From NCBI RefSeq assembly GCF_017355885.1, contig NZ_JAFEUU010000003.1:248001-312000 (forward strand): DNA of 64,000 nucleotides, written 5' to 3'. The notes under the pieces are model-generated. The model saw only the letters and a program-made list of their open reading frames with translations. It ran no database searches and was not told the DNA's origin. The translations under genes were made by a program, and so were the position numbers. The DNA is from Sabulicella rubraurantiaca (GTDB lineage Bacteria; Pseudomonadota; Alphaproteobacteria; Acetobacterales; Acetobacteraceae). Shown here in pieces: positions 46,446-61,920 of the stretch. Numbering within the stretch: the stretch's first letter is position 1; every line of letters starts with the position of its first letter.

Positions 46446-47177
46446 ATGGAAGCCCGCATCGACGAGATCGCTGACGGCATCTACCGGCTGTCGGTCTTCG
46501 TGCCAGAGGTCGCCCCACCAGCGGGCTTCACCTTCAACCACTTCCTCGTGCTCGGCGACGAGCCGCTGCTCTTCCACACGGGATTGCGGCGCATGTTCCC
46601 TCTGATACGCGAGGGGCTTGCCCGAATCATCGCACCAGAGCGGCTGCGCTGGATCGCCTTCGGCCATTATGAAGCAGACGAGTGCGGCGCGATGAACGAG
46701 TGGCTCGCGGTGGCACCGCGAGCGGAAGTCGCACACGGCCAAACCGGATGCATGGTGTCGCTCAACGATATGGCGGACCGTCCGCCGCGCATCCTGGGCG
46801 ACGGTGAGGTGATTGACCTCGGCCGTGGACGGCGCGTGCGATACCTCGACACCCCGCATATCCCGCATGGTTGGGACGCCGGCGTTCTCTATGAGGAGGC
46901 GAGCAGCACCCTGCTTTGCGGAGATCTTTTCTCTCACACCGGCAATGGGCCGGCACTGACGGACATGGACGTGGTCGGGCCGGCTATCGCCACGGAGGAT
47001 TTCTTCCGCTCCTCCAGCCTGCACCCTGGCATGGGCGCCACGATCCGGCGGCTCGCGGAACTTCAGCCGCGCACGCTGGCGTTGATGCACGGATCCTCCT
47101 TCGCCGGAGACGGGACAGCAGCCCTGCGAGCCTTGGGCGACGACTATGACCGCAGAGTCCGGGCGGCACTGGCCTGA
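46446..47177 (+). CDS. MBL-fold di-iron protein (oxygen-binding ODP-like)
   Basis: 243 aa. Metallo-beta-lactamase fold with His74-x-Glu76-x-Asp78 in FGHYEADECGAMNEW, His138 in DTPHIPHGWDAG, Asp160 in LLCGDLFSH and His215 in ALMHGSSF. The Glu in place of the second His of HxHxDH is typical of flavodiiron proteins and of the stand-alone oxygen-binding di-iron proteins (ODP) that sense O2. No flavodoxin or rubredoxin domain is attached, which favours the ODP-type. Isolated in gene-poor DNA, 0.4 kb from a phasin-like gene. Confidence 0.75.
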   Translation: MEARIDEIADGIYRLSVFVPEVAPPAGFTFNHFLVLGDEPLLFHTGLRRMFPLIREGLARIIAPERLRWIAFGHYEADECGAMNEWLAVAPRAEVAHGQTGCMVSLNDMADRPPRILGDGEVIDLGRGRRVRYLDTPHIPHGWDAGVLYEEASSTLLCGDLFSHTGNGPALTDMDVVGPAIATEDFFRSSSLHPGMGATIRRLAELQPRTLALMHGSSFAGDGTAALRALGDDYDRRVRAALA

Positions 47178-47592
47178 CAAGACGAATTCCCAAGCCGCGG
47201 ACGTCGAGCTTGTCTCGGAGAATGGTGGTGCGGGAATGAGGCACACGGAGCCCAGGGAATGAGTGACAGGAACTTGGCGACAGCGGCTCCTCACCCGGAG
47301 GAAATGCGGGCTGAGGTCGATCTCCGCTTCGGAAGCGCGGCGATCCTACTATCGACTGCGTCACTCGTCCGGGCCGCACGTCGAGCCCGCTGATTGGCCA
47401 GCGTCATATCAAGGGCCGAGTGAAGGCGGGACTGGAAGTCAGCGTTCGCGAAGATGCTGGCCCGCCCGTTACGCGAATGGACAAGCGACGAGGCTAAACC
47501 CGTGTGCGCAGCCGCAAGGCTGCGCACAGCGAGCATGCCCTTCTCCCTGAACGTGTCGCGGAAGGAATACAGGCCGGTTGGGACCGGGCGCC
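47178..47592. other. Convergent intergenic region with a stable hairpin
   Basis: 415 bp between the convergent MBL and phasin-like genes. No coding region is supported. It contains one stable hairpin (47503-47528). Confidence 0.4.
47503..47528. terminator. Perfect 11-bp hairpin with GCAA loop, possible bidirectional terminator
   Basis: TGTGCGCAGCC / GGCTGCGCACA with GCAA tetraloop in a convergent intergenic gap. No T-run on either side; could stop transcription only weakly or protect 3' ends. Confidence 0.35.
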
Positions 47593-48057
47593 TCAACCAC
47601 GCGATGGCGTCTTCGTGGCTTCCCCCGCTGGTGCGGCAAGGGTTGCCTGCAGCGAGTTGGCAAGACGTTCGTTCTGACGGCGGAAGGCTTCGCCAAACTC
47701 CCTGATGGCCTGCTCAAGTGCTTCCGCTTCGACGCGGCAGCGGTGATCGTGGTCGTTGCCAGCGCCGCGCAGCGAGGCAGTCATCGCTTCGCCCGCCGCA
47801 CCAAGCAGTCGCTGCTGCTGCTGGAGCAATGCAAGGCCAGCCTGCACCGTCGCCCAATGCGCATGCGTGAAATCCGCCCAGGAACTGATCCAGGTATCCT
47901 GGCCGTCACCTGGCAGCGGGATAGGGAAGGGTGAGGAAAGCCAGGCGAGGGCCGCGGCCGGGGAAGGCGGCGCCGCGGCTGGGCGAGGCTCTGGGTTTTG
48001 AGGAGGCAATGTCGCGCGGTCGCGTGCGGCCCGCTCCTGAATGGTATCCGTGGTCAT
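47593..48057 (-). CDS. Phasin-like coiled-coil protein
   Basis: 154 aa. N-terminal about 55 residues are Pro/Ala-rich and probably disordered; then SWADFTHAHWATVQAGLALLQQQQRLLGAAGEAM and a long amphipathic helix to residue 140, the layout of a phasin. No signal peptide or membrane segment. AGGAG lies 6 bp before ATG 48057; ATG 48081 is also in frame. It is 71 bp downstream of the Crp/Fnr gene on the same strand and in the vicinity of DUF3141, which supports a polyester-granule role, but sequence similarity is low. Confidence 0.55.
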   Translation of the reverse strand: MTTDTIQERAARDRATLPPQNPEPRPAAAPPSPAAALAWLSSPFPIPLPGDGQDTWISSWADFTHAHWATVQAGLALLQQQQRLLGAAGEAMTASLRGAGNDHDHRCRVEAEALEQAIREFGEAFRRQNERLANSLQATLAAPAGEATKTPSRG

Positions 48058-48128
48058 GAGTGGCTCCTGCAACTGTGTCATGTTGCCGTGGCGGGGAGCG
48101 CGCATGGTCCACCACATGGCCGAGCCGA

Positions 48129-48767
48129 CTATTGACCGATGTCAGCGCCAGCCCCTCCCGATCGGCATGCCCGCCGGCGCCCTTCATGCGCGGCGGCATG
48201 CAGTGCGGCAGGATCATGGATTTCAACCACCTGCCCTGAACGCGTGGCGATCATGCCTTCCCTGGCCAGATGGGCGAGGCAACGGCACAGCGTTTCCGAG
48301 CGGATGCCGAGGTGGTCCGCCACGTCCTGGCGCGAAAGCGGAAGGGTGAAGACGCTATCGGCTGCAAGCCGCTCATGCACCTCGAGCAGGAACTGCGCGA
48401 CCCGCTCAGTGGCGGAGCAGCAGGCGAGTCGCACGGCGAGGCAGGTCACGCGGTCGAGCAGCGACGTATCCGCTTCCAACTCCCCTCTTTCCTCCGCGTC
48501 CTCGACGCTTTCGATCAGGCAATCCGTGGCCGCCTCGGCCGTGAGGAGGTGGTCGTCGGCGGAGCGGCCGAAGACCTGCCCCGGAAAGCGGAAATCGAGA
48601 ACGCAGCGTCGGCCATCTTCCGTGTGGCGGACAAGGCGCACGATGCCGGCAAGCACGCGCAGCGATTCAGCATTGCCGTCGCCTTCGACGAATATGGTGG
48701 CCGCTTCGGGATGGCGGCGCGCTCTCCGACGAGACTGGGCGGAGGTGGGGCTCTCCAGGATGCGCAT
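48129..48767 (-). CDS. Crp/Fnr-family transcriptional regulator
   Basis: 212 aa. Cyclic-nucleotide-binding-like beta-roll (about 20-115), dimer helix, and a C-terminal winged HTH with LSRQDVADHLGIRSETLCRCLAHL, close to the FixK/DNR subgroup (recognition helix with SETLCR). The N-terminal Cys cluster of O2-sensing FNR is absent, so it probably responds to another signal (for example NO through heme as in DNR, or is constitutive like FixK). GGGGAG lies 7 bp before ATG 48767. An FNR-type box lies 140 bp upstream. Confidence 0.88.
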   Translation of the reverse strand: MRILESPTSAQSRRRARRHPEAATIFVEGDGNAESLRVLAGIVRLVRHTEDGRRCVLDFRFPGQVFGRSADDHLLTAEAATDCLIESVEDAEERGELEADTSLLDRVTCLAVRLACCSATERVAQFLLEVHERLAADSVFTLPLSRQDVADHLGIRSETLCRCLAHLAREGMIATRSGQVVEIHDPAALHAAAHEGRRRACRSGGAGADIGQ

Positions 48768-48906
48768 GGTCGCACTCCCCTGTGGCGGTCGATCTCCCGC
48801 ATGGATGGAACAAGCCGTTCGATGCGGGCCATGCTTCGCCACACCACGCATCACGAGCCAAATTCATGGCAGTCCGAGATTATCAAGCCCGCTCGGGGGC
48901 GGGGCA

Positions 48907-48920
48907 TTGATTCCAGTCAA
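48907..48920. promoter_or_regulatory. FNR/DNR-type binding site
   Basis: TTGATTCCAGTCAA matches TTGAT-N4-ATCAA in 9 of 10 arm positions; the TTGAT-N4-GTCAA variant is the form reported for NNR/DNR-type regulators. It stands about 140-153 bp before the start of the Crp/Fnr gene, suggesting autoregulation or control by another FNR-family member. Confidence 0.6.
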
Positions 48921-48926
48921 TGTTCG

Positions 48927-48988
48927 CCTGCTCAGGACAGGACAGGATCGCAGGTCGATCTGCAGACTTCCGATATCCTGCTCAGGAC
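48927..48988. repeat. Two 12-bp direct repeats
   Basis: CCTGCTCAGGAC occurs at 48927-48938 and again at 48977-48988, 50 bp apart (about five helical turns), between the FNR-type box and the distal part of the gap. The repeat is partly palindromic. It may be an operator pair. Confidence 0.4.
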
Positions 48989-49349
48989 TGTTCCCGCGGA
49001 GCAGATGGCGTGGCATGGCCGCCATGTCGATCTGGTTCGCTGGCCAACCTAAAGATGAAGGGCCCATGGCGGCTGTTATGGCTGCGGCGCCGTCAGCTCG
49101 GGGCGCTGTCCCATGGTGCCTTCTGAGGGAAGCTTCGGGCATCCATTCGAACGGTTTCTCTTCGGCTGGGATGGGAAGCTGGAAGGCGCTTGGGACGCGC
49201 ACAGCACCTGCCTTTGAGGGGAAGCGCGCATACCACCGCGGACTGTTGCGCCAATCTCGCGGCGGGCGATCACGCGCGATCCGCCACACCATCGGCGAGG
49301 CCGGCACCGGCCTCGCGTTGCTTCGGAACCAGCGCCTTATCGCCCCTGT

Positions 49350-49946
49350 TCAGCGGCCCATCGGCTCGACGGCGACTGCCATGGACTCCGTGTAAACGAG
49401 GTTCACGTTGTCGCCCGGCTTCAGTGTCTCCAGGAAGCGCCGCGCCTCGGGATCGCGCACGGCCACGGTGCGCGCCACGTTGGCGGGCCCGGAGAAGGTG
49501 ATCGTGTGCGCGGCACGGTCCACCGCGTCTACGCGCACCGTCGCCCGCACCTGGCTGCCGACGGTGCCGGTGGGGCTGGAGCCCGGAGGTGCGTGGCGGG
49601 CGACGCCGAGCTGTTCCGTCGCGCTGCCGCCGCCGCCCTGGCCCGGACTGGCAAGCGTCGCGGCAAGGGCCTCGACATATCGGACGACCACGCGCTCGCC
49701 GGGCCTGATGCGGTCAAAATTCTCTACGGCGGGGCCGGCCATCACCGCGAATAAATTGCCGCCCGGTCCGCGCAGAACGATCTCGCGCTTCTGAGGGTCC
49801 ACCGACTCGACCGTCGCGGCCACCTCGGTCGTGTAGGCGACGGTCGCGCCGGGGCGCTGCTGCGCCTGTGCCTGCGCGCTGGGCGTGGCGAGCAAGGTGC
49901 AGCCAGCCACAAGGAAAGCGTAGCCGGCAGACTTCATCATGGTCAT
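49350..49946 (-). CDS. Hypothetical exported protein with an internal duplication
   Basis: 198 aa. Signal peptide (residues 1-about 25, ending SAQA), then two related beta-rich units of about 75 residues: EVAATVESVDPQKREIVL...RIRPGERVVVRYVEALA and VRATVRVDAVDRAAHTITF...TLKPGDNVNLVYTESMA. Each has the form of a small OB-like barrel. No cysteine in the mature part. AGGAGG precedes ATG 49946 by 8 bp. Periplasmic; function unknown. Divergent from the DUF4239 gene. Confidence 0.7.
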   Translation of the reverse strand: MTMMKSAGYAFLVAGCTLLATPSAQAQAQQRPGATVAYTTEVAATVESVDPQKREIVLRGPGGNLFAVMAGPAVENFDRIRPGERVVVRYVEALAATLASPGQGGGGSATEQLGVARHAPPGSSPTGTVGSQVRATVRVDAVDRAAHTITFSGPANVARTVAVRDPEARRFLETLKPGDNVNLVYTESMAVAVEPMGR

Positions 49947-50291
49947 GCGTCCATCCTCCTGCGTATGTTCGGCCGCGCGGCTCGGCGCCTTGGGCGGAAC
50001 TGCGCGCAACCTGCGCCACGGGCGACCACACAGTGCCTGCGGCACCAAGGGTCACCACGCCGCGTTACCGACGCCCCGACGGTATGCTGCCTGTGCGAGC
50101 CAGGCAGCCGCTCGCGCTATCGAATTCCTCGCTGTATCCGAACGGCCCCCCCCGAACGGAGCCTGCTTTGCAAGAGCAGGGAAACTGATAGCGATCCGGC
50201 CGCAACGGGTACGATCCAAATCGCTACCGTGCGCACTCTGGATCGCGGCGAACGGCACGCCGCCACACAATCTCCGGACGGAGTATGGCTC
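49947..50291. other. Divergent promoter region
   Basis: 345 bp between the exported-protein gene (minus) and the DUF4239 gene (plus). No further gene seen. Contains a 7-bp inverted repeat TAGCGAT/ATCGCTA (50189-50195 and 50220-50226) and a short hairpin near 50162-50180. Confidence 0.4.
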
Positions 50292-51155
50292 GTGTCGCTG
50301 CTCGCTGAACTTGCCCGGCATAGCCTCCTCGCCTTCGCCGCCGTCCTGTTCCTGCTTCAGATCGGGGCGCGGGAGCTCGGCTACGCGCTGGGGCGGCGAA
50401 GCGCGAAGGCAGATGCGCCAGTCGAGGGCGTAGGCGTCGTGGTGACCAGCATGCTCGGGCTGCTCGCCTTCGTGCTTGGCCTGACCTTGGCGTACTCGAA
50501 CACGCGGTTCCAGGAGCGCCGTGACGTTACGCTGCAGGAGGCGCAGTCCATCGGCACTTCCTGGCTGCGCGCAGGGGCCGTGGGCGGCACGCAGGGGGCG
50601 GAGATCGCGCGCCTGCTCGAGACATACATCCAGCTGCGCTTGGAGTTCGTCGAGGCGCCGCGCGACGAGGGCGCAGTGGCCCAGCTGAACGCACGCACCG
50701 ACGAGCTTCAGGCCCAGATCTGGCGGCAGGTGACGGAGCTCACGAGCACGCGGGCCGATCCGGTCGTCACGTCACTGTTGGTCTCCCTCAACGAGACCTT
50801 TGATTTGGCCACCGCACAGCGGCACGCCTTCGCCTCCGGTCCCGCTGCACAGCTCGTCTTCCTCCTCCTCGCCATGGCCATGGCGAGCATGGGCGGCCTC
50901 GGCTACCAGTTCGGACTGCGGGGCAGGCCGCTCAGGATCATCTCCCTCGTCATGCTGGGAATGTGGACTGCGGTCCTGGTCATCATCATCGACCTCGGCG
51001 CGCCGCGGCTGGGGCAGATCCGCACCGACCCGGCCCGCTGCTCTGGACGCTGGAGAGCTTCAGGCCACCTGCCCAGCGCTAATGCCTTTGCACGGTCAGT
51101 TGCCGGAACGCTCCCGCGTCAGACGCCCATAGCTGTCGTAGAGTTGGTCCGATGA
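50292..51155 (+). pseudogene. DUF4239 (bestrophin-like) membrane protein, apparent frameshift near the 3' end
   Basis: About 263 aa expected. Four membrane segments, two near the N-terminus (about 5-30, 45-70) and two near the C-terminus (about 190-240), with a charged helical central part (TLQEAQSIGTSWLRAG), as in DUF4239. Start GTG 50292 has GGAG 8 bp upstream. In the annotated frame the end becomes RCSGRWRASGHL and runs to 51155, overlapping the next gene. If one base is restored near 51033-51036 the sequence continues as PLLWTLESFRPPAQR and stops at 51082, which matches the family ending and leaves the neighbouring gene free. Either a real 1-bp deletion or a sequencing error. Confidence 0.65.
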
Positions 51156-51335
51156 GGAGCGTCCGTCCCGCATCGAGCCCTCTACCCGGTCGGTTCCCCG
51201 GCTCGTCCCGCCACGCACGAAGGTGAGGCCGGAGCATCCTGCCAGGATGCCGAGCGCGAGAGAGACCAGGGCTGTCAAGTGGAGGGCACGGCGGCGCGGC
51301 GTGTATGAGGCGTGATCCGGCGTGGATATGCTCAT
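51096..51335 (-). CDS. Small hypothetical lipoprotein
   Basis: 79 aa. After a basic stretch (YTPRRRALHL) comes a hydrophobic segment and lipobox LGILAGC (about Cys35), then a short polar tail. The signal-anchor is clear, the function unknown. It starts at ATG 51335 with GGAG 12 bp upstream (a GTG at 51338 is also possible) and follows the DUF3141 gene on the same strand, 56 bp after its stop. Confidence 0.55.
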   Translation of the reverse strand: MSISTPDHASYTPRRRALHLTALVSLALGILAGCSGLTFVRGGTSRGTDRVEGSMRDGRSSSDQLYDSYGRLTRERSGN

Positions 51336-51391
51336 CACGACCCCGATCTCCTTTGAACCAACCCCGCGGCGAGCATGAGGCTTCCGCATGG

Positions 51392-53542
51392 TCAGGCGAT
51401 GGCCTCGGGCTGCTTGCCCTGGCGCAGCAGGGCCGCGACAGGCCCTTCGCGCACCTCTTCGACACTGAAACCCGCCACCCCGGCTGCCTTCCGCAGCGCG
51501 GCGACCGCCATGTCCCGATCCTTCGGGTCGGCGAAGATCGTCGCGAGGCCGTGTATCGCGGCCTCCCGGTCCACCCGCAGCAGCAGCGCCTGGCGGCGGG
51601 CGATCTCGCGCAGCTCCGGCGGTGTCGGGCGGTGCCGCGCCGGCAGCTCATCGCGCACGGCGCGCAGCGCCCGGTAGGTTCGCTCGTCCACGGCGCCCTG
51701 CTCGTTCATCAGCAGCAGCAGGATGCGCACCACCCCGTCACGCAGCGTCCCGGCGCCCGCCTGTACCCGCAAATCCTCGGCCTCACGCCGCGCCAAAGCA
51801 CGCCGCACCGGGTCGGCGCCGAGCGGTGCCGACGGTGCCGCGTCGGCAAGCCCGGCGGCGGCCCGTGCCACCGGCGTGTCGTAGATCGCCTTGAAGATCT
51901 GCTCGCTCGCCTTGTGCCGCGCCTCCGACGCGGCCTCGATCCCGCGCTCGACCGCCTTGGCGGCGTCGCGTTCCATCTCGCGGAAGGTGTTGCCCGGCGC
52001 GCAGGGCCTGCGCGCGGCCCGGACGGCGTCGGCCGCCGCGGCCAGGGGCCACATCAGCGGGTTCATGTCGGAAATCGCCCAGCGCTGCAGCCGCAGCGGG
52101 TGGAACCGCCGCATCGCCTCCGCCACCGGCTCGCTCGCCATCGCCCGCACGGCTGGCGCGAGGAGCTGTTGGTACAGTCCGGTATTCACGTCGGAGACGC
52201 GGTTCACGACCTCGAAGGGACGCTCGCCGGCACGGTCGCCGCAGAGCGCCGCGATATCGGCGAGGCCTCGCCGTTCGAAGCGGGTGACGTAGCGGTCGGG
52301 CACCAGCTCCGCCGCGCGCATCTCTGGCCGCTTGTCCTCGATCAGCATCTCGAACAGGCCAGGCGGCAGCGCCTCGATCAGGTCGAGCAGTTCGACGAAG
52401 CCGGCATGCTCCTTCCGCGCCACGGCACCGGAGACGAAGATGCCCAGGTGTCCGACCTTCGGGTGGACGCAGTAGACGATGGTTTGCCCCTGCGCGAGCA
52501 GGTCGTCATCGGAGGCGTAGAGGTCAAGGATCCAGTTCAGCGCCTGCTGCGGCGGGGTGATGTCGTCGCCCCATGAGCAGAGGACGCAAATTGGCGAACG
52601 GATGTTGCGGAGGTCCACCCGGAGTGCCCCATCGTGCGACACCACCTCGCCGCGCGCGAGCTTGTTGCCGACGAAGAGCTGGTCCACGATCGCGGTGATC
52701 TCCTCCCGGTTCATCAGGAAGAATCCGCCCCACCAGCGCTCGAACTCCAGGAAGCGCGGCGGCTCGGTGTCCGCCTTGTCCAGCAGGTTGTAGTATTTCT
52801 GCCACCAGACATTGGCCGGGTTCAGCGACTCGAAGTTCAGCACCAAGTTCGCGCCGTCGAAACGCCCATTGCCGAGATCGCTCGAAAGGTGGGCGAGCCA
52901 GCTCCCGCCCATCAGGCCGCCGGCGTAGCGCATCGGGTTCAGCCCCGGCGCGCCCGCCCAGTAGGAGAGCGGCGAGCCGGCAACGAGGATCGGCCCTGGC
53001 AGGTCCGGCCGCACGGCGGCGAGGCCCATGATGGCCCAGCCGGCCTGGCAGTTGCCGATCACGCAGGGGCCGCCAGGCGCTTCGGGATGACGTTCGCGGA
53101 CCAGCTCCAGGAAGCGTGCCTCCGCAAGCATGACATCCACGAGACGCTGGCCGGGGACCGGATCGGGAAAGAAGGTCACGAAATAGACCGGGTGGCCCAG
53201 CTTCAGGGCATTCCCGATCTCGCTATCCTCCTTGAAGCCACCGATCCCGGGTCCGTGCCCCGCGCGCGGGTCCACCACCACGAAGGGGCGCAGCGCAGGA
53301 TCGGTGGGCAGGTCGTTCTGGCCTGGAAGGATGCGCAGCAAGGCGTAATTGCAGGGGCGCTCCAGCGACCGCCCGTCCAGCAGCAGCTCATGCGCGAAAG
53401 TCAGCAGCGGCGGCTGGCCCGCGGCCACGTGGCCCAGGTAATCGTTTCCGCGCTGCCTCAGCGTGTCCCAGAAGAGCACACTGCGCTGCGCGGCATCCAC
53501 CGCGTAGTCGAACAGTTCGGCAAACACCGGCACGCCTGCCAT
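51392..53542 (-). CDS. DUF3141 protein, PHA-synthase-like alpha/beta hydrolase
   Basis: 716 aa. The N-terminal about 400 residues have the alpha/beta-hydrolase fold and a PhaC-like triad: Cys165 in the lipase box VIGNCQAGWA, Asp326/327 in CSWGDDITP and His365 in HPKVGHLGIFVSG. The remaining 300 residues are helical and not recognised. DUF3141 proteins are annotated as poly(3-hydroxyalkanoate) synthase-like and co-occur with acetate kinase and phosphate acetyltransferase genes. They lack the usual PhaC N-terminal domain, so polymerisation is not proven. It starts 3 bp after the stop of the 151-aa gene and is the penultimate gene of the leftward operon. Confidence 0.85.
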   Translation of the reverse strand: MAGVPVFAELFDYAVDAAQRSVLFWDTLRQRGNDYLGHVAAGQPPLLTFAHELLLDGRSLERPCNYALLRILPGQNDLPTDPALRPFVVVDPRAGHGPGIGGFKEDSEIGNALKLGHPVYFVTFFPDPVPGQRLVDVMLAEARFLELVRERHPEAPGGPCVIGNCQAGWAIMGLAAVRPDLPGPILVAGSPLSYWAGAPGLNPMRYAGGLMGGSWLAHLSSDLGNGRFDGANLVLNFESLNPANVWWQKYYNLLDKADTEPPRFLEFERWWGGFFLMNREEITAIVDQLFVGNKLARGEVVSHDGALRVDLRNIRSPICVLCSWGDDITPPQQALNWILDLYASDDDLLAQGQTIVYCVHPKVGHLGIFVSGAVARKEHAGFVELLDLIEALPPGLFEMLIEDKRPEMRAAELVPDRYVTRFERRGLADIAALCGDRAGERPFEVVNRVSDVNTGLYQQLLAPAVRAMASEPVAEAMRRFHPLRLQRWAISDMNPLMWPLAAAADAVRAARRPCAPGNTFREMERDAAKAVERGIEAASEARHKASEQIFKAIYDTPVARAAAGLADAAPSAPLGADPVRRALARREAEDLRVQAGAGTLRDGVVRILLLLMNEQGAVDERTYRALRAVRDELPARHRPTPPELREIARRQALLLRVDREAAIHGLATIFADPKDRDMAVAALRKAAGVAGFSVEEVREGPVAALLRQGKQPEAIA

Positions 53543-53545
53543 GGG

Positions 53546-54001
53546 TCAGATCTCCTCGGGGCTCTTCCAGGTCAGGAAGAAGCCGACATCGCCTGGCATG
53601 CCGCCTGGCCAGTCCACGATTTCGGCACGGATCTGGAAGCCGCGTGGCTCCAGCTCGCGCTTGAAAAAGTCGTGAGCGCGCTTGGCGAAGCCATCGAGCG
53701 ACGCCGACCAGTTCCTGTCGCGGTTGGTGATGGCGCGTCCCTGGTCCGGCAACCAGGAGGACGGGAAGCGCAGCACCAGGGCCTGCTTCTCCCCCATGTC
53801 CACGGTCTTGCGCACCAGCGCGGCGACCCGGTCCAGCGCGTCCGGCTGCACCTCACGCTCCAGGAAGGCCTGGTGAAGCTTGTCGAGTTCCTCCTTCTGC
53901 TGCGTCTCGAAGCTGCGCTGCTTGGCCGCATCCGCGTCCTTCTTGGACCGGAGGTAGCCGCGCACCGCGTCGGCGCTCAGCGTGCTGCCGGTGAAGCTCA
54001 T
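53546..54001 (-). CDS. Unrecognised 151-aa protein of the acyl-phosphate/DUF3141 operon
   Basis: 151 aa, soluble, mixed alpha/beta. The first 55 residues are a charged helix (SKKDADAAKQRSFETQQKEE) and the rest contains RFPSSWLPDQGRAITNRDR and a C-terminal WPGGMPGDVGFFLTWKSPEEI with many aromatic and charged residues. No known catalytic motif. GGGAGG is 7 bp before ATG 54001. Located between the FabI-like and DUF3141 genes (30 and 3 bp gaps), so its function is tied to that operon. Confidence 0.7.
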   Translation of the reverse strand: MSFTGSTLSADAVRGYLRSKKDADAAKQRSFETQQKEELDKLHQAFLEREVQPDALDRVAALVRKTVDMGEKQALVLRFPSSWLPDQGRAITNRDRNWSASLDGFAKRAHDFFKRELEPRGFQIRAEIVDWPGGMPGDVGFFLTWKSPEEI

Positions 54002-54031
54002 GCTCAGTCCTCCCATCCCACCCGACGCCGG

Positions 54032-54829
54032 CTAACCGAGGATGTGGTAGCCGCCGTCTATGAAGAGCGTCTCGCCTGTCATCGCCGCGCCGTAGTCGCT
54101 GGCGAGGAAGACGCAGGCCGCGCCGACCTCCTCGACCGTCACCAGCCGCCGCGCCGGCGCGCGGCTCAAGACCTTTTCCATCAGCTCGTCGAAGTCGCGG
54201 ATGCCGGAAGCCGCCCGCGTGGCCAGCGGGCCGGGGCTGACCGCGTGCACGCGGATGCGCTTCGGCCCCAGCTCAGTCGCCACGTAGCGCACGCAGGATT
54301 CGAGCGCCGCCTTCACCGGGCCCATGATCCCGTAATTGTCCACCACTTCGGACGCTCCGAGGTAGGACATGGTCATCATGGTCCCACCCTCCTTCATGAG
54401 CGGCTCTGCCCGGCGGGCGAGGTCGAGGAAGGACCAGCAGGAGACATCCATGGCCGTGAGGAAGCCATCACGCGGGCAGTCCACGACGCGGCCCTGCAAC
54501 GCCTCCTTGGGCGCGAAGGCGATGGAGTGGACCAGCACGTCGAGTTGCCCCCAGCTCTTCGCGAGGGCTTCGAACAGAGCATCCACCTGTGCCTCGTCGC
54601 GCACCTCCAGCGGAAGGAAGAGGGGCGCCTCCAAGGCATGCGCCAGCGGCTCGACATGTGGCTTTGCCCGCTCGTTCAGATAGGTCATGGCGATGTCGGC
54701 GCCAGCGCGGCGCATCGCCTGCGCGCAGCCCCAGGCGATGGAACGGTCATTGGCGACGCCTACCACCAGCGCCTTCTTCCCGGTCAGCACGGGCGGCATG
54801 CGCGTGGTGTCATGGGCGTGATGGGTCAC
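54032..54829 (-). CDS. fabI: FabI-like NADH-dependent enoyl-ACP reductase
   Basis: 265 aa. SDR fold with the FabI cofactor loop VGVANDRSIAWGCAQAM and the catalytic pair Tyr166-x6-Lys173 plus Tyr156 (YLGASEVVDNYGIMGPVK), in E. coli FabI spacing. It reduces enoyl-ACP or enoyl-CoA. In this operon it sits with a MaoC-type hydratase, so the two could saturate/hydrate short acyl chains; the housekeeping FabI may be elsewhere. Start GTG 54829 overlaps the acetate kinase stop (GTGA); ATG 54799 is internal. Confidence 0.85.
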   Translation of the reverse strand: MTHHAHDTTRMPPVLTGKKALVVGVANDRSIAWGCAQAMRRAGADIAMTYLNERAKPHVEPLAHALEAPLFLPLEVRDEAQVDALFEALAKSWGQLDVLVHSIAFAPKEALQGRVVDCPRDGFLTAMDVSCWSFLDLARRAEPLMKEGGTMMTMSYLGASEVVDNYGIMGPVKAALESCVRYVATELGPKRIRVHAVSPGPLATRAASGIRDFDELMEKVLSRAPARRLVTVEEVGAACVFLASDYGAAMTGETLFIDGGYHILG

Positions 54830-56019
54830 GGCAGCGCTCCCTCGGTCGCAAGCGCGGCGATTGTGTGCCGCGCGATCATCAGGTTCTCGTTGGTTGGGAT
54901 GACATGCGCCGCGACGCGGCTGGACGTCGTGGTGATGCGCGGGGCGCGCGCCGCATTGGCCGCGGGGTCGAGCTCGACGCCGAGCCAAGCGCAGGCCTCG
55001 CAGATCGAGGCCCGGATGGGCGCCGCGTTCTCGCCGACGCCGGCGGTGAAGACGATCCCGTCCAGTCCGCCAAGCGCTGCCGCAAGCGAGCCGACGCTGC
55101 GCGCGACGCGATGGACGAACACTTCCAGCGCGAAGCGCGCGCGCGGCTCCTGGCTCGCCAGCAGGTCGCGGAAGTCGGAAGACACGCCGGAAAGGCCGAG
55201 CATGCCGGAGCGGCGGTAGAGGAGAGCTTCGACCTCCTCGACGCTCATGCCCTCCTCGCGCAGGAAGTGCAGGACGACGGCGGGATCCAGCTCGCCGCAC
55301 CGTGTGCCCATCGGCAGCCCGTCGAGCGCGGAGAAGCCCATCGTGGTCGCCACGCTGCGTCCCGCTTGCATGGCGCAGAGCGAGGCGCCGTTGCCGAGAT
55401 GCGCGACGACGACACGCCCATCGGCGAGGGCCGGCGCCACTTTCGGGAGGACGGAGGCGATGTGCTCGTAGGACAGGCCGTGGAAGCCGTAGCGGCGCAC
55501 GCCCTTCTCGGCATAGGCGAAGGGGATGGCGAAGGCCTGCGACACCTCCGGCATGGTGCGGTGGAAGGCGGTGTCGAAGCAGGCCACCTGCGGCAGGTCC
55601 GGAACCACCTCCAGGGCGGCGCGGATCGGCGCGAGGTTGAAGGGCTGGTGCAGCGGTGCGAGCGGGCAGAGGCATTCCAACTCGTCCAGCAGCGCAAGCG
55701 TCACGCGCGCCGGGCGGTCATGCGCGGCCCCGCCATGGACGACGCGGTGACCGAGCGCGGCGAGCCGTCGCCTACCGAGCTGGCTGCGCAGCCATGGCAA
55801 GATCCAGGTCAGGGCATCGGCGGGGTTCGCTGGCCCGGCACCTTCCAGCGGCGGCCCCGTCAGCGCGGCACCGGAGGAGTCCTTCGCCCGGAAGCCGGGT
55901 CGCGCGCCGATGCCGTCCACCTGCCCGTCGAGCAGGCTCCGCCCATCCTCGAAGACCGAGAATTTCAGCGAGGAGGAGCCGGCATTGACCACGCCGACGA
56001 CAGTGCCGGGGTCGCTCAT
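54826..56019 (-). CDS. ackA: Acetate kinase
   Basis: 397 aa. ASKHA-fold kinase: NAGSSSLKF (12-20), GHRVVHGG, CFDTAFHRTMP, YGFHGLSYEHI and AHLGNGASL motifs are all present. It makes ATP from acetyl phosphate (or propionyl phosphate). ATG 56019 overlaps the stop of the preceding acyltransferase gene, so the Pta and Ack steps are co-expressed. Confidence 0.95.
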   Translation of the reverse strand: MSDPGTVVGVVNAGSSSLKFSVFEDGRSLLDGQVDGIGARPGFRAKDSSGAALTGPPLEGAGPANPADALTWILPWLRSQLGRRRLAALGHRVVHGGAAHDRPARVTLALLDELECLCPLAPLHQPFNLAPIRAALEVVPDLPQVACFDTAFHRTMPEVSQAFAIPFAYAEKGVRRYGFHGLSYEHIASVLPKVAPALADGRVVVAHLGNGASLCAMQAGRSVATTMGFSALDGLPMGTRCGELDPAVVLHFLREEGMSVEEVEALLYRRSGMLGLSGVSSDFRDLLASQEPRARFALEVFVHRVARSVGSLAAALGGLDGIVFTAGVGENAAPIRASICEACAWLGVELDPAANAARAPRITTTSSRVAAHVIPTNENLMIARHTIAALATEGALP

Positions 56020-57401
56020 GCGTGGCCTCCGCCCCTCTCCGCTGCGGCCGCCAGCATGCGCGCGAGGGCGATCGAGGCGAGGCGCGAGGTGACGCTGTCG
56101 GCGCGGCTGGTCAGGATGACCGGCACGCGCGCGCCCAGCACGAGGCCCGCGCTGTCCGCGCCCGCGAGGTAGCTGAGCTGCTTGGCGATCATGTTGCCGG
56201 CCTCGAGGTCCGGCGCGACCAGGATGTCGGCGTCGCCCGCGACGGGCGAGGTGATCTTCTTCACCGCCGCCGCCGCGCGGCTGATGGCGTTGTCGAAGGC
56301 GAGCGGGCCGTCGAGGATCGCCCCGGTGATCTGCCCACGGTCCGCCATCTTGCAGAGCGCCGCGGCCTCCAGCGTGCCGGGGATCTTCGGGTTCACCGTC
56401 TCGACCGCGGACAAGATCGCGACCTTTGGCGCCTTCTCGCCGAGCGCCCGCACCGTGTCCACCGCGTTCTGGACGATGTCCACCTTCGTGGCGAGGTCCG
56501 GCGCGATGTTGATCGCTGCGTCGGTGATGAAGAGCGGCTTGTGGTAGGACGCGACGTCCATGGCGAACACGTGGCTGAGCCGCCGCGTGCCCCTCAGCCC
56601 GCCCTCGCGCGAGACGACGGCGGCCATCAGCTCATCCGTGTGCAGGCTGCCCTTCATCAGCGCGGCGGCACGCCCGTCGCGGCAGAGGCGCACGGCTGCC
56701 ATGGCGGCCTCGTGCGGCGTCCCCGCCTCGACCACCTCGCACCCGTCCAGCGAGGCGCCGGCCTCGGCAGCGGCGTGCTCCATCGCAGCGCGCGGGCCGA
56801 CGAGGATCGGCAGGATCGCCCCGCCGCGGAGCGCCTGGAGCGGACCCAGAAGGCTGTCCCGGTCGCAGGGCCATGCGACGGCCACGCTCAGCGATGGCGC
56901 GGCAGCGGCGCGTTCCATGAGCGCCTCGAGGTGCCGGTGATGGTGCAGGATGATGTCCGGGCGGTCGGCCGGTGGCAGCGTCACGGGCTCGGCCGGGAGG
57001 CGCACCGTCACGGCGCCTTCGGCCACGCGGCCGCGCGGCGCCTCGACGACCAGGGCGATCACCGCGCTGTCTTCCGCTGGACGGGATGTCACCGTCCCCG
57101 TCACCCGGACCGTGTCGCCCGGTGCGGGGACCATCGAAAGGCGCAGATCCTCGGAGAGGAGCCGGCAGCCCGGGCCCGGCAGGTGCCGCGTGACGAAATC
57201 CAGCACGATGCCCTGCAGCATCAGCGCCTCGGCGGCGTCAGGCGCACCGGCGTGGTCGCGCCCCGGCACGCCGAGCATCGCCGCGGCGACGTCGAATGCC
57301 CGGTCCTGCAGCGCCCGCTCGGCGGTGGCCGTGAGCCCGATGCGCACGTCGTCCCGGGACGGTCCGGTGTGCAGCTGAAGATGGTGGGTGCCGATGCTCA
57401 C
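56016..57401 (-). CDS. Bifunctional enoyl-CoA hydratase / phosphate acyltransferase
   Basis: 461 aa. N-terminal about 135 residues are a MaoC-like hot-dog domain (recognisable by LRLSMVPAPGDTVRVTGTVTS), and the C-terminal about 320 form the phosphate acetyl/butyryltransferase fold (SVAVAWPCDRDSLLGPLQAL, LMKGSLHTDELM, FITDAAINIAPDLATK, GDADILVAPDLEAGN). It would interconvert acyl-CoA and acyl phosphate, and hydrate enoyl-CoA. This fusion is a known architecture in alphaproteobacteria. Start GTG 57401. First gene of the leftward operon; its control region faces the CoA-transferase operon. Confidence 0.9.
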   Translation of the reverse strand: MSIGTHHLQLHTGPSRDDVRIGLTATAERALQDRAFDVAAAMLGVPGRDHAGAPDAAEALMLQGIVLDFVTRHLPGPGCRLLSEDLRLSMVPAPGDTVRVTGTVTSRPAEDSAVIALVVEAPRGRVAEGAVTVRLPAEPVTLPPADRPDIILHHHRHLEALMERAAAAPSLSVAVAWPCDRDSLLGPLQALRGGAILPILVGPRAAMEHAAAEAGASLDGCEVVEAGTPHEAAMAAVRLCRDGRAAALMKGSLHTDELMAAVVSREGGLRGTRRLSHVFAMDVASYHKPLFITDAAINIAPDLATKVDIVQNAVDTVRALGEKAPKVAILSAVETVNPKIPGTLEAAALCKMADRGQITGAILDGPLAFDNAISRAAAAVKKITSPVAGDADILVAPDLEAGNMIAKQLSYLAGADSAGLVLGARVPVILTSRADSVTSRLASIALARMLAAAAERGGGHA

Positions 57402-57721
57402 GACCGTCGCCTCTCCGCCTTTCTGTCAGCCGTGCACGATCAAGGCTGCGTCGTGGCGCGCCGGCCGTCGCAGCCGCGAACCGCGCAGAGCCGTCGCCTG
57501 CGGCAGCGGCCGCAGGATCGGTTCCCCTGCCGCGGCGCAGCAAGTGGCGAGGCTGTCAAAAAACGTCCCGTTTGACCGGGTCGCACCCGCGACGAGGTGG
57601 CCAGGAATTCCGATAGCGTTCGGCGGCGACGGCAGGTGCGATGATGACTAGCGTGAGCCGCACGCGGCCCGCGCGGCGCCGGTGGCTGCACCGTCGGCGC
57701 AGGCACGCGCAGGAGACTGCG
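57402..57721. promoter_or_regulatory. Divergent control region of the acyl-phosphate and CoA-transferase operons
   Basis: 320 bp without a supported gene. It contains the inverted repeat GTCAAA-N10-TTTGAC (57555-57576) roughly midway between the two starts, a plausible operator for both directions, and TTTGACC-like half-sites. No FNR palindrome is seen. Confidence 0.45.
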
Positions 57722-58375
57722 ATGCGGATCGCCATCAACGCCGAGGAAGCAGCCAAGCTGGTGCCCGACGGCGCCAGCGTGATGGTCGCCGGCTTTCTGG
57801 GCGTGGGCACGCCGGAGAGGCTGGTCGAGGCGCTCGTCGCCCGCGGCGCGCGCGGCCTCACGGTCATCGGAAACGACACGGCGCGGCCCGGGCTCGGGAT
57901 AGGCAAGCTGATCGACGCCGGATGTGTCGCGCGCGTCGTCGCCTCGCACATCGGCACGAACCCGGTGACCCAGCGGAAGATGCTGGCTGGCGAGATTCAG
58001 GTGGACCTGGTGCCTCAGGGCACGCTGGCAGAGCGCATCCGGGCGGGCGGCGCCGGGCTGGGCGGCGTGCTGACGCCGACCGGTGTCGGCACCGCCGCAG
58101 CGGACGGCAAGCGCGTGATCGAACTCGACGGACGCGAGTTTCTGCTGGAGCCGCCGCTGCGCGCCGACGTGGCGCTGCTGCACGCGCACGAGGCGGACCA
58201 CTTCTTCAACCTCGCCTACCGGCTGACGGCGACGAACTTCAATCCGGTCATGGCGCTCGCCGCCGACTGCGTGATCGCCGAGGCCGACGAGGTCGTGCCG
58301 ATCGGCGTGATTCCGCCCGACGCGGTCCGCACCTCCGGCATTCTCGTGGATTACCTCGTGGCACGGGGGCGATGA
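57722..58375 (+). CDS. CoA transferase subunit A
   Basis: 217 aa. Class I 3-oxoacid/acetate CoA-transferase alpha subunit: EEAAKLVPDGASVMVAGFLGVGTP and ADVALLHAHEADHFFNLAYRLTATNFNPVMALAADCVI are typical of AtoD/ScoA. ATG 57722 gives the normal N-terminus. Overlaps the beta subunit (ATGA), so the two are co-translated. Confidence 0.92.
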   Translation: MRIAINAEEAAKLVPDGASVMVAGFLGVGTPERLVEALVARGARGLTVIGNDTARPGLGIGKLIDAGCVARVVASHIGTNPVTQRKMLAGEIQVDLVPQGTLAERIRAGGAGLGGVLTPTGVGTAAADGKRVIELDGREFLLEPPLRADVALLHAHEADHFFNLAYRLTATNFNPVMALAADCVIAEADEVVPIGVIPPDAVRTSGILVDYLVARGR

Positions 58376-59055
58376 GCATGGACGCGAAGGAATTGATCGC
58401 ACGGCGCGTCGCCCTTGAGCTGCACAACCGCACCCTGGTCAATCTCGGCATCGGCCTGCCGACCCTGGTTGCGCGGTACGTGCCGCCGGGCATCCGCGTG
58501 GCCTTCCAGAGCGAGAACGGCATACTGGGCTTCGACACCCGGCCGCCGGAGGGGATGGAGAACCCAGACCTGACCGATGCCGGCGGCAGTCCCATCTCCG
58601 CCCTGCCGGGCGCGTGGAGCTTCGACAGCGCGACCTCCTTCGCGCTGATCCGTGGCGGCCACCTGGACATGACGGTGCTCGGCGGCCTTCAGGTAGATGC
58701 AGCGGGACGACTGGCGAACTGGATGGTGCCGGGAAGGATGGTGGCCGGCATGGGCGGGGCGATGGACCTCGTCGTCGGTGCGCGCCGGGTGGTGGTCGCC
58801 ATGCAGCACGCCGCGAAGGGCGAGCCGAAGATCGTCCCGGAGCTGACCCTGCCGCCGACCGCTGCACGGCGCATCACGCTGGTGGTCACCGATCTGGCGG
58901 TGATCGAGCCGACGGACGAGGGGCTGCTGCTGCGCGAGCGCGCGCCAGGCGTGACCGTGGACCAGATTGTCGCGGCGACGGGCGCGCAGATGCTGATTCG
59001 GGGCACGGTGCCCGAGATGCCGATCGCGCCGGCTCCCGAGGGAGCGCCGGGGTGA
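58372..59055 (+). CDS. CoA transferase subunit B
   Basis: 227 aa. Beta subunit with the catalytic-glutamate motif QSENGILG (Glu48) and the GGHLDMTVLGGLQVD and LVVTDLAVIEPT stretches. Together with subunit A it moves CoA between acetate and acetoacetate or another short acid. Substrate not fixed by sequence. Overlaps the next gene by GTGA. Confidence 0.92.
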   Translation: MSMDAKELIARRVALELHNRTLVNLGIGLPTLVARYVPPGIRVAFQSENGILGFDTRPPEGMENPDLTDAGGSPISALPGAWSFDSATSFALIRGGHLDMTVLGGLQVDAAGRLANWMVPGRMVAGMGGAMDLVVGARRVVVAMQHAAKGEPKIVPELTLPPTAARRITLVVTDLAVIEPTDEGLLLRERAPGVTVDQIVAATGAQMLIRGTVPEMPIAPAPEGAPG

Positions 59056-60188
59056 GCGCCCCGCCGGTGAACGAGGCCCGGCGCGAAGCGGCAGGTCCGG
59101 ACCGCGTGGCCGTTGCCGGCGCGAACGGAACGGTGACGCTCATCGAGCGCGCCTTCGTCCTGCTCCTCATCGGCGGCCTGCTGCTCGGCGTCCTGGCAGT
59201 CCTGTGGCCCTTCGGCACAGCCATCCTCTTCGCGACGGTCCTGGCGATCGCCACGTGGCCACTGCGGACGGCCATGGTGCGGCGCGGCGTGTCGCGCGGG
59301 CTCGCCGCCACGTTGATGTGCCTCGCGGCCCTGCTGGTCGTCGGCCTTCCCGCCCTCGTCGCCGCACCGCGCCTGACCGCGCAGGTGTCAGGGCTGAATG
59401 CGAATGTCGCGGCAGCGTTCAACGCCCTGCCCGACTCGCCGCCCGGGTGGCTATCCGGTCTTCCGGTCGTCGGGGCCAGGGCGACCGGAGTCTGGGCGGC
59501 CGTGGCGGCGGCCGAGGGCGACCTGTACACGCTGCTCGCCCCCTACGCGGAGACGCTGCGGCGCGGCGTGGTGGCGGCCGCATCCGCCCTCGCGGAAAGC
59601 GCGCTGGAGTTCCTGCTCAGCATCATCGTCGCCGGCATGCTGTGGGCGAGGGGCGACGCCGTGCAGGAGGCCCTCCGGGACGTCGCGCTCCGCCTCGGCG
59701 GCGATGCAGCGGTCGGGGCGCTGGAAACCGCCAGCGGCGCGCTGCGCGGCGTCGCCTATGGCGTCGTCGGCACCGCGCTGATCCAGGGGCTGCTGATGGC
59801 GACAGGTGCGTGGATCGCCGGCGTGCCGGGCGCCGTCCTCCTCGGCTTCCTCGTGCTGCTTCTGGCGATCAGCCAGGTCGGCGCGATCCTGCTTCCCCTG
59901 GTGTGGGGCGGCGCCGGGTGGTGGCTCTTCCAGCGCGACGAATCGGGCTGGGGCGTGTTCATGCTCGTTTGGGGATTCCTCCTTGTCACGATGAGCGACA
60001 ACGTGCTGCGGCCCTGGCTGATCAGCCGCGGCCTGACGATGCCGATGACGCTGGTCATCCTTGGCGTGTTCGGCGGGTTCGTCTCCCTCGGCTTCCTCGG
60101 ACTCTTCGTCGGGCCGGCGCTCCTCGCGGTCGCGTTCACCTTGCTGCAGGCCTGGCGGGGCCAGCTGCCAGCAACCTTCGAGAGCTGA
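59052..60188 (+). CDS. AI-2E family transporter (PerM/TqsA-like permease)
   Basis: 378 aa with about 7-8 membrane helices and the family-typical last segments LVTMSDNVLRPWLISRGLTMPMTLVILGVFGGF and LGFLGLFVGPALLAVAFTLL. These UPF0118 proteins are poorly defined exporters (autoinducer-2, Na+/H+ or others). It starts at GTG 59052, overlapping the CoA-transferase stop, which suggests it may export a small acid made by this pathway; that is inference. Confidence 0.82.
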   Translation: MSAPPVNEARREAAGPDRVAVAGANGTVTLIERAFVLLLIGGLLLGVLAVLWPFGTAILFATVLAIATWPLRTAMVRRGVSRGLAATLMCLAALLVVGLPALVAAPRLTAQVSGLNANVAAAFNALPDSPPGWLSGLPVVGARATGVWAAVAAAEGDLYTLLAPYAETLRRGVVAAASALAESALEFLLSIIVAGMLWARGDAVQEALRDVALRLGGDAAVGALETASGALRGVAYGVVGTALIQGLLMATGAWIAGVPGAVLLGFLVLLLAISQVGAILLPLVWGGAGWWLFQRDESGWGVFMLVWGFLLVTMSDNVLRPWLISRGLTMPMTLVILGVFGGFVSLGFLGLFVGPALLAVAFTLLQAWRGQLPATFES

Positions 60189-60192
60189 GGCC

Positions 60193-61920
60193 ATGCCCGC
60201 GGACGCACCGGCGGAGGTGGCGGCGGGGCGCGCGGAACGGGCCACGCGGCGCCTCGGTCTGCCGGTTCTCTCCTGGCTGCCGGGCTACGCGCCGGCCTGG
60301 CTGCCGCAGGACGCCGTCGCCGGAGTCACGCTGGCCGCCTACGCGATCCCTGTCGCACTGGCCTACGCCGCGCTCGCCGGCCTGCCGCCGCAGCTCGGCA
60401 TCTACGGTTACCTGCTCGGGGGCCTCGGCTATGCCCTGTTCGGCTCCTCGCGCCACCTGGCCATCGGGCCGACCTCGGCGATCTCCCTGATGGTGGGCGC
60501 AGGGGCCGCAGCGATCGCCGGCGGCGATCCCGCCATGCACGCCGCCGTGGCGACGCTCACGGCCTTCGCCGTCGCGGTGATCTGCCTCGTCGCATGGGGC
60601 GCCCGGCTCAGCGCCCTGGTCAAGCTGATCAGCAACAGCGTGCTGGTCGGGTTCCGCTTCGGCGCGGGGCTGACGATCTCCATGACGCAGCTCCCTGCCC
60701 TGTTCGGCGTCCCGGGCGGCGGGCGGGACTTCATCGAGCGGGCGTGGCTCCTGCTCGGCCAGCTCGGCGAGGTGAATCCCTACGCCCTCGCCCTCGGCCT
60801 GGCGGCGCTGATTGCGCTCGTCGCGGGGGGGCACCTGCTGCCCGGCAAGCCGGTCGCGCTCGCCGTGGTCGTGCTGGCGATCGCCGCGGTGCCTGCGCTG
60901 GGCCTGGCCGGCCACATCGCGGTGACCGGCGCCATCCCGCCGGGTTTGCCCGAGATCGGCCTGCCCCAGCTCCGCCTGCGCGACGTGCCCGACCTCTTCC
61001 CCCTCGCGGCCGGCTGCGTGCTGCTGGCCTATATCGAGGGCGTCTCGGCGGCGCGCAGCTTCGCCGAGAAGCATGGCTACGCCATCAATGCGCGCCGCGA
61101 GTTCCTCGGCCTCGGCGCGGCGAACCTGCTCGCCGGGCTGGGGCACAGCTACCCGGTGGCTGGCGGGCTGTCGCAATCCGCGGTGAACGAGAAGGCGGGC
61201 GCGCGGTCGCCCCTCTCGCTGGTTTTCGCCTCGGCTACCCTCGCCCTCTGCCTCATCTTCCTGACGGGGCCGCTGGCCTACCTGCCGAAGGCGGTGCTCG
61301 CGGCCATCGTGCTGACCGCGGTCGCGGGCCTCATCGACGTGGGCGCGATGGCGCGACTGTGGCGGGTCAGTCGCCTCGACTTCGCCGCAGCTTCCTGCGC
61401 GCTGGCCGGCGTGCTGCTGCTCGGCATCCTGCAGGGTGTGCTGCTGGCGGCGCTGGCCTCGGTCCTCATGGTCCTCGCCCGCGGGACGCGGCCGCACGTC
61501 GCCGTGCTCGGGCGCATCCCCGGCACGAGGCAATTCGGCGACCGTGGACTGCACCCCGAGAACGAGCCGATCCCCGGTGTGCTGGCCGTCCGGCCGGAGG
61601 GGGCGCTCATCTACCTCGGCGCGGAGCATGTCGAGGAGGCCGTCATGGCTGCGGTCGATGCCGCGCCGGCGGGGGCGCTCCGCACCGTCGTGTGCGACCT
61701 CTCCGCCACGCCGAACATGGATTTCTCGGGGGCGCAGGCGCTGCGGCGGCTGCACGCGGCGCTCGCTGCACGCGGCATCGCGCTGCGGCTGGTCGGCGCG
61801 CATGGCCGCGTGCGCGAGGTGCTCAGGCGCGACGGCATCGCGGTCCTGGCTGGCGGCGGAGACCGCGGCGACACGCTGGAAGGCTTCGCAATGGGAGACG
61901 CGGCGGGACAGGCGCGCTGA
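60193..61920 (+). CDS. SulP-family anion transporter with STAS domain
   Basis: 575 aa. About 11-14 membrane helices with the SulP/SLC26 pattern LPQDAVAGVTLAAYAIPVALAYA, HLAIGPTSAISLM, and SYPVAGGLSQSAVNEKAGARSPLS, then a C-terminal STAS domain (from about 445; AVDAAPAGALRTVVCDLSATPNMDFSGAQALRRL) for regulation. Substrates in the family are sulfate, bicarbonate or dicarboxylates. It begins 4 bp after the AI-2E gene, so co-transcribed with CoA transferase. Confidence 0.9.
   Translation: MPADAPAEVAAGRAERATRRLGLPVLSWLPGYAPAWLPQDAVAGVTLAAYAIPVALAYAALAGLPPQLGIYGYLLGGLGYALFGSSRHLAIGPTSAISLMVGAGAAAIAGGDPAMHAAVATLTAFAVAVICLVAWGARLSALVKLISNSVLVGFRFGAGLTISMTQLPALFGVPGGGRDFIERAWLLLGQLGEVNPYALALGLAALIALVAGGHLLPGKPVALAVVVLAIAAVPALGLAGHIAVTGAIPPGLPEIGLPQLRLRDVPDLFPLAAGCVLLAYIEGVSAARSFAEKHGYAINARREFLGLGAANLLAGLGHSYPVAGGLSQSAVNEKAGARSPLSLVFASATLALCLIFLTGPLAYLPKAVLAAIVLTAVAGLIDVGAMARLWRVSRLDFAAASCALAGVLLLGILQGVLLAALASVLMVLARGTRPHVAVLGRIPGTRQFGDRGLHPENEPIPGVLAVRPEGALIYLGAEHVEEAVMAAVDAAPAGALRTVVCDLSATPNMDFSGAQALRRLHAALAARGIALRLVGAHGRVREVLRRDGIAVLAGGGDRGDTLEGFAMGDAAGQAR

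Follow-up and report, generated by a model that had tools for sequence, protein, structure and literature searches.

A pta-ackA-fabI-DUF3141 operon of Sabulicella rubraurantiaca as a probable variant of a widespread proteobacterial energy module

In Sabulicella rubraurantiaca (Acetobacteraceae), genes for the Pta and AckA enzymes, a FabI-type reductase, a polyhydroxyalkanoate (PHA) synthase-like DUF3141 protein and a coenzyme A (CoA) transferase lie within 13 kb of one another and of a Crp/Fnr regulator gene, which raises the question of whether they form one system and what that system would do. A preliminary description, made from the sequence alone, read them as a single unit that turns short acyl-CoA into ATP and stores or releases acyl units in granules when oxygen is low. 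The window analysed here is a whole stretch of 64,000 nucleotides (contig NZ_JAFEUU010000003.1; G000:C36:248001-312000) from a 5.0-Mb genome that is 99% complete. Papers are cited by PMC number, and what is said of them refers to excerpts of their text. We consider it probable that five genes at 57401-51392 and, divergent from them, the CoA transferase represent one version of a substrate-level-phosphorylation module (DUF3141, pta, ackA and fabI) that is widespread in proteobacteria and is used when respiration is limited.

The operon and the conservation of its core

All five genes lie on the minus strand. The first encodes Pta with an N-terminal extension (56016..57401; PF01515; PRK08190 at 524.9 bits against a cut-off of 282), followed by the acetate/propionate kinase AckA (54826..56019; PF00871, with TIGR00016 above its cut-off), a FabI-type enoyl-acyl carrier protein reductase (54032..54799; PRK07533 at 424.6 bits, cut-off 337), a 151-residue protein of an unnamed family that we label U156 (53546..54001) and DUF3141, a PHA-synthase-like alpha/beta hydrolase (51392..53542; PF11339 at 854 bits). 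Divergent from them, on the plus strand, are subunits A (57722..58375; PF01144; TIGR02429 above its cut-off, the acetate CoA-transferase model PRK09920 below its own) and B (58378..59055; PF01144) of a CoA transferase of the 3-oxoacid/acetate type. The family models bear out the earlier naming of AckA, the FabI-like reductase, DUF3141 and the CoA transferase. The operon had also been called overlapping; it is indeed tight and runs on a single strand, but the one overlap, of 4 bp, is between Pta and AckA, and the remaining gaps are 26, 15-30 and 3 bp with the start codons picked in the analysis, on which they depend.

Peptide patterns from the window's own DUF3141 retrieved 45 loci, rich in Bradyrhizobium and counted without correction for relatedness; below, "near" means within 6 kb of DUF3141, and the 27 loci with at least 6 kb on either side are called fully flanked. 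Pta lies near DUF3141 in 28 of the 45 loci, AckA in 26 and FabI in 29, and 23 loci have all three; the fully flanked loci give 19, 16, 19 and 16. Because it is conserved across loci, the core is not a chance assembly. It is spread through alpha-, beta- and gammaproteobacteria, and it is the part of the originally proposed system that recurs among relatives, whereas the genes to the left of the operon, discussed below, do not. Of the 27 fully flanked loci, 8 have a member of the 151-residue family near DUF3141 and 7 have the CoA transferase there (12 of all 45).

For the family itself, 20 loci were taken from the 29 Acetobacteraceae loci besides the window's own, and once four duplicates (L099, L111, L113 and L114) were dropped, 6 of the remaining 16 had all three core genes near DUF3141; the nearest DUF3141 loci are those of Siccirubricoccus and of Roseomonas-like Acetobacteraceae. 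DUF3141 was matched in 44 of 120 family genomes (37 above the curated cut-off, several of the matches being weak and partial; above 600 bits in 29) and in 20 of 299 genomes of the phylum (E 1e-50). The family sample includes just one further member of the window's genus, and its genome lacks DUF3141.

The extension of the first gene had been described as a MaoC domain fused to Pta. The Pta assignment stands and the extension is present, but its hydratase character does not survive inspection: the N-terminal 150 residues gave zero Pfam matches even at E 10, and GDxNPxH, the active-site motif of MaoC and (R)-enoyl-CoA hydratases, is missing from the window protein and from that of locus L098; a related fusion (L116) retains it. 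MaoC hydratase activity was rejected on these two grounds, and we speak of a MaoC-like domain. By eye, the extension can be seen in five rows of the Pta alignment (L002, L006, L007, L012 and L034) and was not seen in the others, mostly Hyphomicrobiales. Separately, the Pta gene of Siccirubricoccus G192 (L007:6199-7528) is split across two frames, a break that is either real or a sequencing error. Downstream of the CoA transferase (59052-61920) lie open reading frames (ORFs) for an AI-2E-family and a SulP-STAS transporter; among 78 loci retrieved for the module or the 151-residue family, including four duplicates, AI-2E was matched in 5 and SulP in 7.

DUF3141 and the 151-residue family

Cys165, Asp326 and His365 of DUF3141 are invariant across 40 sequences and, judged from PhaC and from excerpts of PMC11878206, probably constitute a catalytic triad. 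In a structural model with a predicted local distance difference test score (pLDDT) of 86, the 12 top fold matches in the PDB are all PHA synthases, whose template modelling (TM) scores, taken over the full length of the query, reach only 0.29-0.35; the best PDB match by sequence is likewise a PHA synthase, and weak (E 0.0033). The PhaC_N domain (PF07167) was not found in DUF3141, PF11339 being the sole family at E 0.001, and two PhaC_N proteins are encoded elsewhere in the genome. As modelled, DUF3141 keeps an alpha/beta-hydrolase core with a PhaC-like fold and triad, and its polymerase activity is only predicted. DUF3141 has already been grouped with PHA synthases (excerpts of PMC11878206), and the excerpts of two papers that name it do not describe this operon. 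The polyester link drawn in the preliminary description is upheld by the fold and triad, and by the rise of pta and ackA in a Bradyrhizobium diazoefficiens phaR mutant.

The 151-residue protein had been listed as unknown, and so it stays: it has no Pfam or NCBIfam match at E 0.001 and no Pfam match at E 1, and the best Pfam match of any family member (E 0.0057) is unconvincing. Its model is confident (pLDDT 89), yet a Foldseek search of the PDB gave no match at E 0.001 or below, and the search of solved structures gave nothing useful. The family, which has 13 invariant columns among 19 sequences, was detected in 8 of 289 alphaproteobacterial genomes and also occurs on plasmids. We opened 11 such plasmid records, hand-picked, mostly annotated and from varied genera. 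Three of these have the gene inside or next to a DUF3141 operon or gene; elsewhere it is directly 3' of arcABC in 2, directly 3' of a phosphoketolase gene in 1, near DUF2950 and DUF3300 genes with polyphosphate kinase 2 (PPK2) about 6 kb away in 2, near a resistance-nodulation-division pump with a polyphosphate:AMP phosphotransferase further on in 1, and without a telling annotated neighbour in 2. The ATP-linked neighbourhoods are the pta-ackA operon, arcABC (carbamoyl phosphate), phosphoketolase (acetyl phosphate) and polyphosphate kinase genes kilobases off. FNR/FixK boxes stand upstream of arcA in both arcABC records, and some genes of the family have a box of their own. In S. meliloti, arcABC is reported to be under FixK control (excerpts of PMC3164228).

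In a Pfam tally of neighbouring ORFs, which covered 71 out of 151 listed, no family exceeded 2 of 71, PPK2 being among those with 2. The Sinorhizobium plasmid members right behind arcABC (L119:5494-9429 and L141:3355-7297) are annotated "histidine kinase", a name to which the Pfam search of the family gives no support. A further proposal, which we hold tentatively and consider doubtful, is that the 151-residue protein founds a new low-oxygen accessory family that serves ATP formation from high-energy acyl phosphates and binds these kinases or their substrates, with DUF3141 as a PhaC-like acyl sink.

Possible oxygen and phosphate control, and the left-hand genes

We counted as an FNR/FixK box any TTGATN4ATCAA site with at most one mismatch, and as upstream any site within about 300 bp of a gene. 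The 45 loci (789 kb) hold 49 such sites, against 8 after one mononucleotide shuffle. When the 16 non-duplicate family loci are added (61 loci, 60 with sufficient upstream sequence), a box precedes DUF3141 in 13 of 60, compared with 2.1% of random windows; these are six Bradyrhizobium, five Acetobacteraceae, one Stappia and one alphaproteobacterial metagenome-assembled genome. A box also precedes the CoA transferase in 10 of 14 cases, all Bradyrhizobium, and the 151-residue gene in 4 of 18; for Pta, AckA and FabI the counts are 0 of 35, 0 of 31 and 1 of 38. Outside the 60-locus count, Rhodobacter CZR27 has a perfect box about 95 bp, and NGR234 a box about 100 bp, upstream of DUF3141, and no box lies that close to it in S. 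meliloti Rm41, S. meliloti RCAM1115 or S. medicae ml29. Low-oxygen control is thus supported in relatives by these boxes and by induction in bacteroids, although the box, at 13 of 60, is not universal in the module. The low-oxygen role claimed for the locus stands to that extent, but the window operon has no FNR box of its own, and its induction by low oxygen is a prediction from sequence.

As for phosphate, the best PHO site at the operon promoter (57402-57721) has 6 of 14 mismatches to the PHO consensus, and random stretches of the window have a median of 5-6; no good PHO box was found in five relatives either, and the best site at the DUF3141 promoters of four S. meliloti-type records has 5 of 14 mismatches. 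A stretch with TTGACA upstream of pta (57401-57640 in the window) looks alike by eye in the window, L002 and L007, but an alignment failed to recover it.

To the left of the operon, and away from it, the box TTGATTCCAGTCAA (48907..48920) stands upstream of the Crp/Fnr gene (48129..48767, minus strand) and is the sole site with at most one mismatch in the 64-kb window. The whole genome has four such positions, against none for a reversed-pattern control. One (L095:3518-3531) is just before a cbb3-type oxidase operon with COX1, FixO and FixP domains, one falls inside an ORF, and a fourth has no low-oxygen-looking ORF adjoining it among ORFs of at least 180 residues. Because another box precedes the cbb3 oxidase operon, the box at 48907 is a credible low-oxygen site for the Crp gene, not for the operon. 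The regulator matches the helix-turn-helix family HTH_Crp_2 (PF13545, 66.6 bits, cut-off 27); its best NCBIfam match, FixK, is far below cut-off. It has no N-terminal cysteine cluster, on which ground an iron-sulphur FNR identity was rejected; L151, a further Crp/Fnr protein encoded in this genome, by contrast carries CX2CX7C together with the recognition helix ETVSR. Matches to the window regulator occur in 33 of 120 family genomes including its own (E 1e-15), the others being 33-47% identical.

Two further genes lie beyond it. A small orphan protein (47593..48057, minus strand) had been called phasin-like, a label that we drop: no phasin model in Pfam or NCBIfam matched it even at E 10 (PHROGs were not searched), its sole Pfam row is DUF5819 at E 0.12, and its own genome is the only one of 120 in the family where it was found; phasin identity was rejected on these grounds. 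The stand-alone metallo-beta-lactamase (MBL) protein (46446..47177, plus strand) is of the oxygen-binding diiron protein (ODP)/flavodiiron type, with PF19583 above the ODP cut-off, matches to flavodiiron proteins and to the oxygen-binding diiron protein 6qrq, and HYEAD in its translation, HxExD being the metal motif of such proteins. It occurs in 5 of 120 family genomes, and in G088 roughly 0.6 Mb separates it from the closest DUF3141. The earlier identification of the Crp/Fnr gene with its FNR-type box and of the di-iron MBL protein is sound, but their inclusion, with the phasin-like gene, in one system is not: none of the three is near DUF3141 in any of the 27 fully flanked loci; on the other side, 1 of 45 loci and 1 of 16 family loci have a Crp relative, distant at 31-34% identity, within 6 kb of it. 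Lack of co-occurrence, which the preliminary description had itself named as refuting, is the ground on which the three genes were rejected as parts of the unit; they are neighbours, and their membership in the conserved unit is not supported.

Proposed role and known systems

Under limited respiration, Pta and AckA would convert acetyl-CoA, drawn from pyruvate or from polyhydroxybutyrate that is being mobilised, to acetate and ATP; the CoA transferase would shuttle CoA between acetate and acetoacetate/acetoacetyl-CoA; reducing power and acyl groups would be absorbed by FabI and the PhaC-like DUF3141; and the 151-residue protein would be accessory to such ATP-forming steps. The formation of ATP from acetyl-CoA, already proposed in the preliminary description, is supported by the protein families; the direction of flux, the substrates and the roles of DUF3141 and the small protein are those that we infer. 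Such a module would tie DUF3141 and an unnamed small family to respiration-free ATP formation in supposed aerobes, nodule bacteria included, and the boxes ahead of the DUF3141, CoA-transferase and small-protein genes offer a testable regulatory signature. Since the core is known, the gain lies in two poorly known proteins and in regulation across lineages; DUF3141's reaction and the 151-residue family are the most open parts, and the latter is the least known.

Several observations weigh against this reading. All three core genes are missing near DUF3141 in 5 of the 27 fully flanked loci and, within the family, in 6 of the 12 that are fully flanked; the window operon has no FNR/FixK box with at most one mismatch, nor do the retrieved loci of its Pta-first relatives L002, L006 and L007. 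The lxa locus of Burkholderia, compared below, is also expressed in air in B. contaminans (excerpts of PMC4981469 and PMC6127331), and PhaR binding was untested for blr3456 of B. diazoefficiens in the excerpts of PMC10888616. A comparable S. meliloti operon is reported to be phosphate-induced and PhoB-controlled (excerpts of PMC5789663 and PMC8231600), so oxygen need not be the signal. That induction by phosphate starvation would suit an operon that mainly assimilates, in which AckA and Pta activate acetate, and DUF3141 and FabI store polyester or lipid at carbon excess or phosphate shortage, as would the PhaC-like fold and triad of DUF3141 and the storage of excess acetate proposed in a Burkholderia review (excerpts of PMC8231600). 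We nevertheless think it rather unlikely, given that boxes in several relatives and strong bacteroid induction point to low oxygen, that two ordinary PhaC_N proteins of the genome are available for storage, and that the operon has no good PHO box.

A different question is whether DUF3141 is a depolymerase or an acyl-CoA thioesterase, feeding acyl-CoA to Pta-AckA or releasing acyl groups, and not a synthase. PHA depolymerases also carry Cys-Asp-His triads (excerpts of PMC11878206), and many other alpha/beta hydrolases, including one PHB depolymerase among the 50 fold matches listed, match the fold less well. However, the 12 best fold matches are synthases, and phaC holds the matching place in Burkholderia clusters, even if identity between the phaC products and that of the S. 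meliloti ORF is no more than 2-24% (excerpts of PMC8231600), and we judge this alternative unlikely. Very improbable is a wider unit in which the operon, the phasin-like, Crp/Fnr and di-iron MBL genes form one oxygen-controlled granule system: all lie inside 13 kb, and FNR-type boxes precede both the Crp gene and the cbb3 oxidase operon elsewhere, but the three left-hand genes do not accompany DUF3141 in fully flanked loci, the phasin-like gene is confined to its own genome and lacks a phasin match, and the rare MBL gene is remote from DUF3141 in G088.

We retain the substrate-level-phosphorylation module as our preferred reading, and its core is not without precedent. The combination had been thought not to be described as a unit, but core clusters are in print for both S. 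meliloti and Burkholderia (excerpts of PMC8231600). The S. meliloti ORF-pta-ack-fabI operon is co-transcribed and PhoB-controlled (Summers 1999 as cited there), and the likeness, in those excerpts, lies in contiguous pta, ackA and fabI with one further ORF, which may be DUF3141. In S. medicae and S. meliloti records and in NGR234, DUF3141 directly precedes pta-ackA-fabI; because no good PHO box was found in the four records, the 1999 operon and the DUF3141-bearing records are perhaps different copies. The window, in contrast, has DUF3141 last, the 151-residue gene inserted before it and a MaoC-like domain on Pta. In two rhizobia, Pta, AckA and FabI genes rose about 2-fold under root exudate (excerpts of PMC5789663).

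Low-oxygen parallels come from other bacteria. Pta and AckA were raised 166-/228-fold and 118-/182-fold in NGR234 bacteroids (excerpts of PMC3732241), and these are, by position, probably the pNGR234b genes, where DUF3141 directly precedes the pta, ackA and fabI matches. At 0.5% O2, a phaR mutant of B. diazoefficiens showed a 7.2-fold rise of blr3456, the first gene of the predicted operon blr3456-blr3459, as well as induction of pta (blr3457) and ackA (blr3458) (excerpts of PMC10888616). The order there, as excerpted, is hypothetical-pta-ackA-further gene, and ten of the Bradyrhizobium loci analysed here read DUF3141-Pta-AckA-FabI; from gene order, blr3456 is probably DUF3141 and blr3459 FabI. 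The low-oxygen-induced lxa locus of B. cenocepacia resembles the 13-kb locus, in excerpts of PMC4981469 and PMC6127331, in having AckA, Pta, a PHA polymerase gene, an MBL protein and putative CRP-family regulators, but with about 50 genes and six universal stress proteins it is unlike the window operon; three universal stress protein matches occur in our genome, none of them on the window contig (C36).

The Burkholderia phaC-pta-ack-fabI clusters of groups D1 and D2 (excerpts of PMC8231600) share with the window a fused hydratase-like/Pta gene, AckA and FabI adjoining a PHA-synthase gene, which is phaC there and DUF3141 here, and the hydratase motif is lost from the window's Pta. The module is thus real, conserved and largely known, its core having already been described in rhizobia and Burkholderia, and it is the arrangement that is new.

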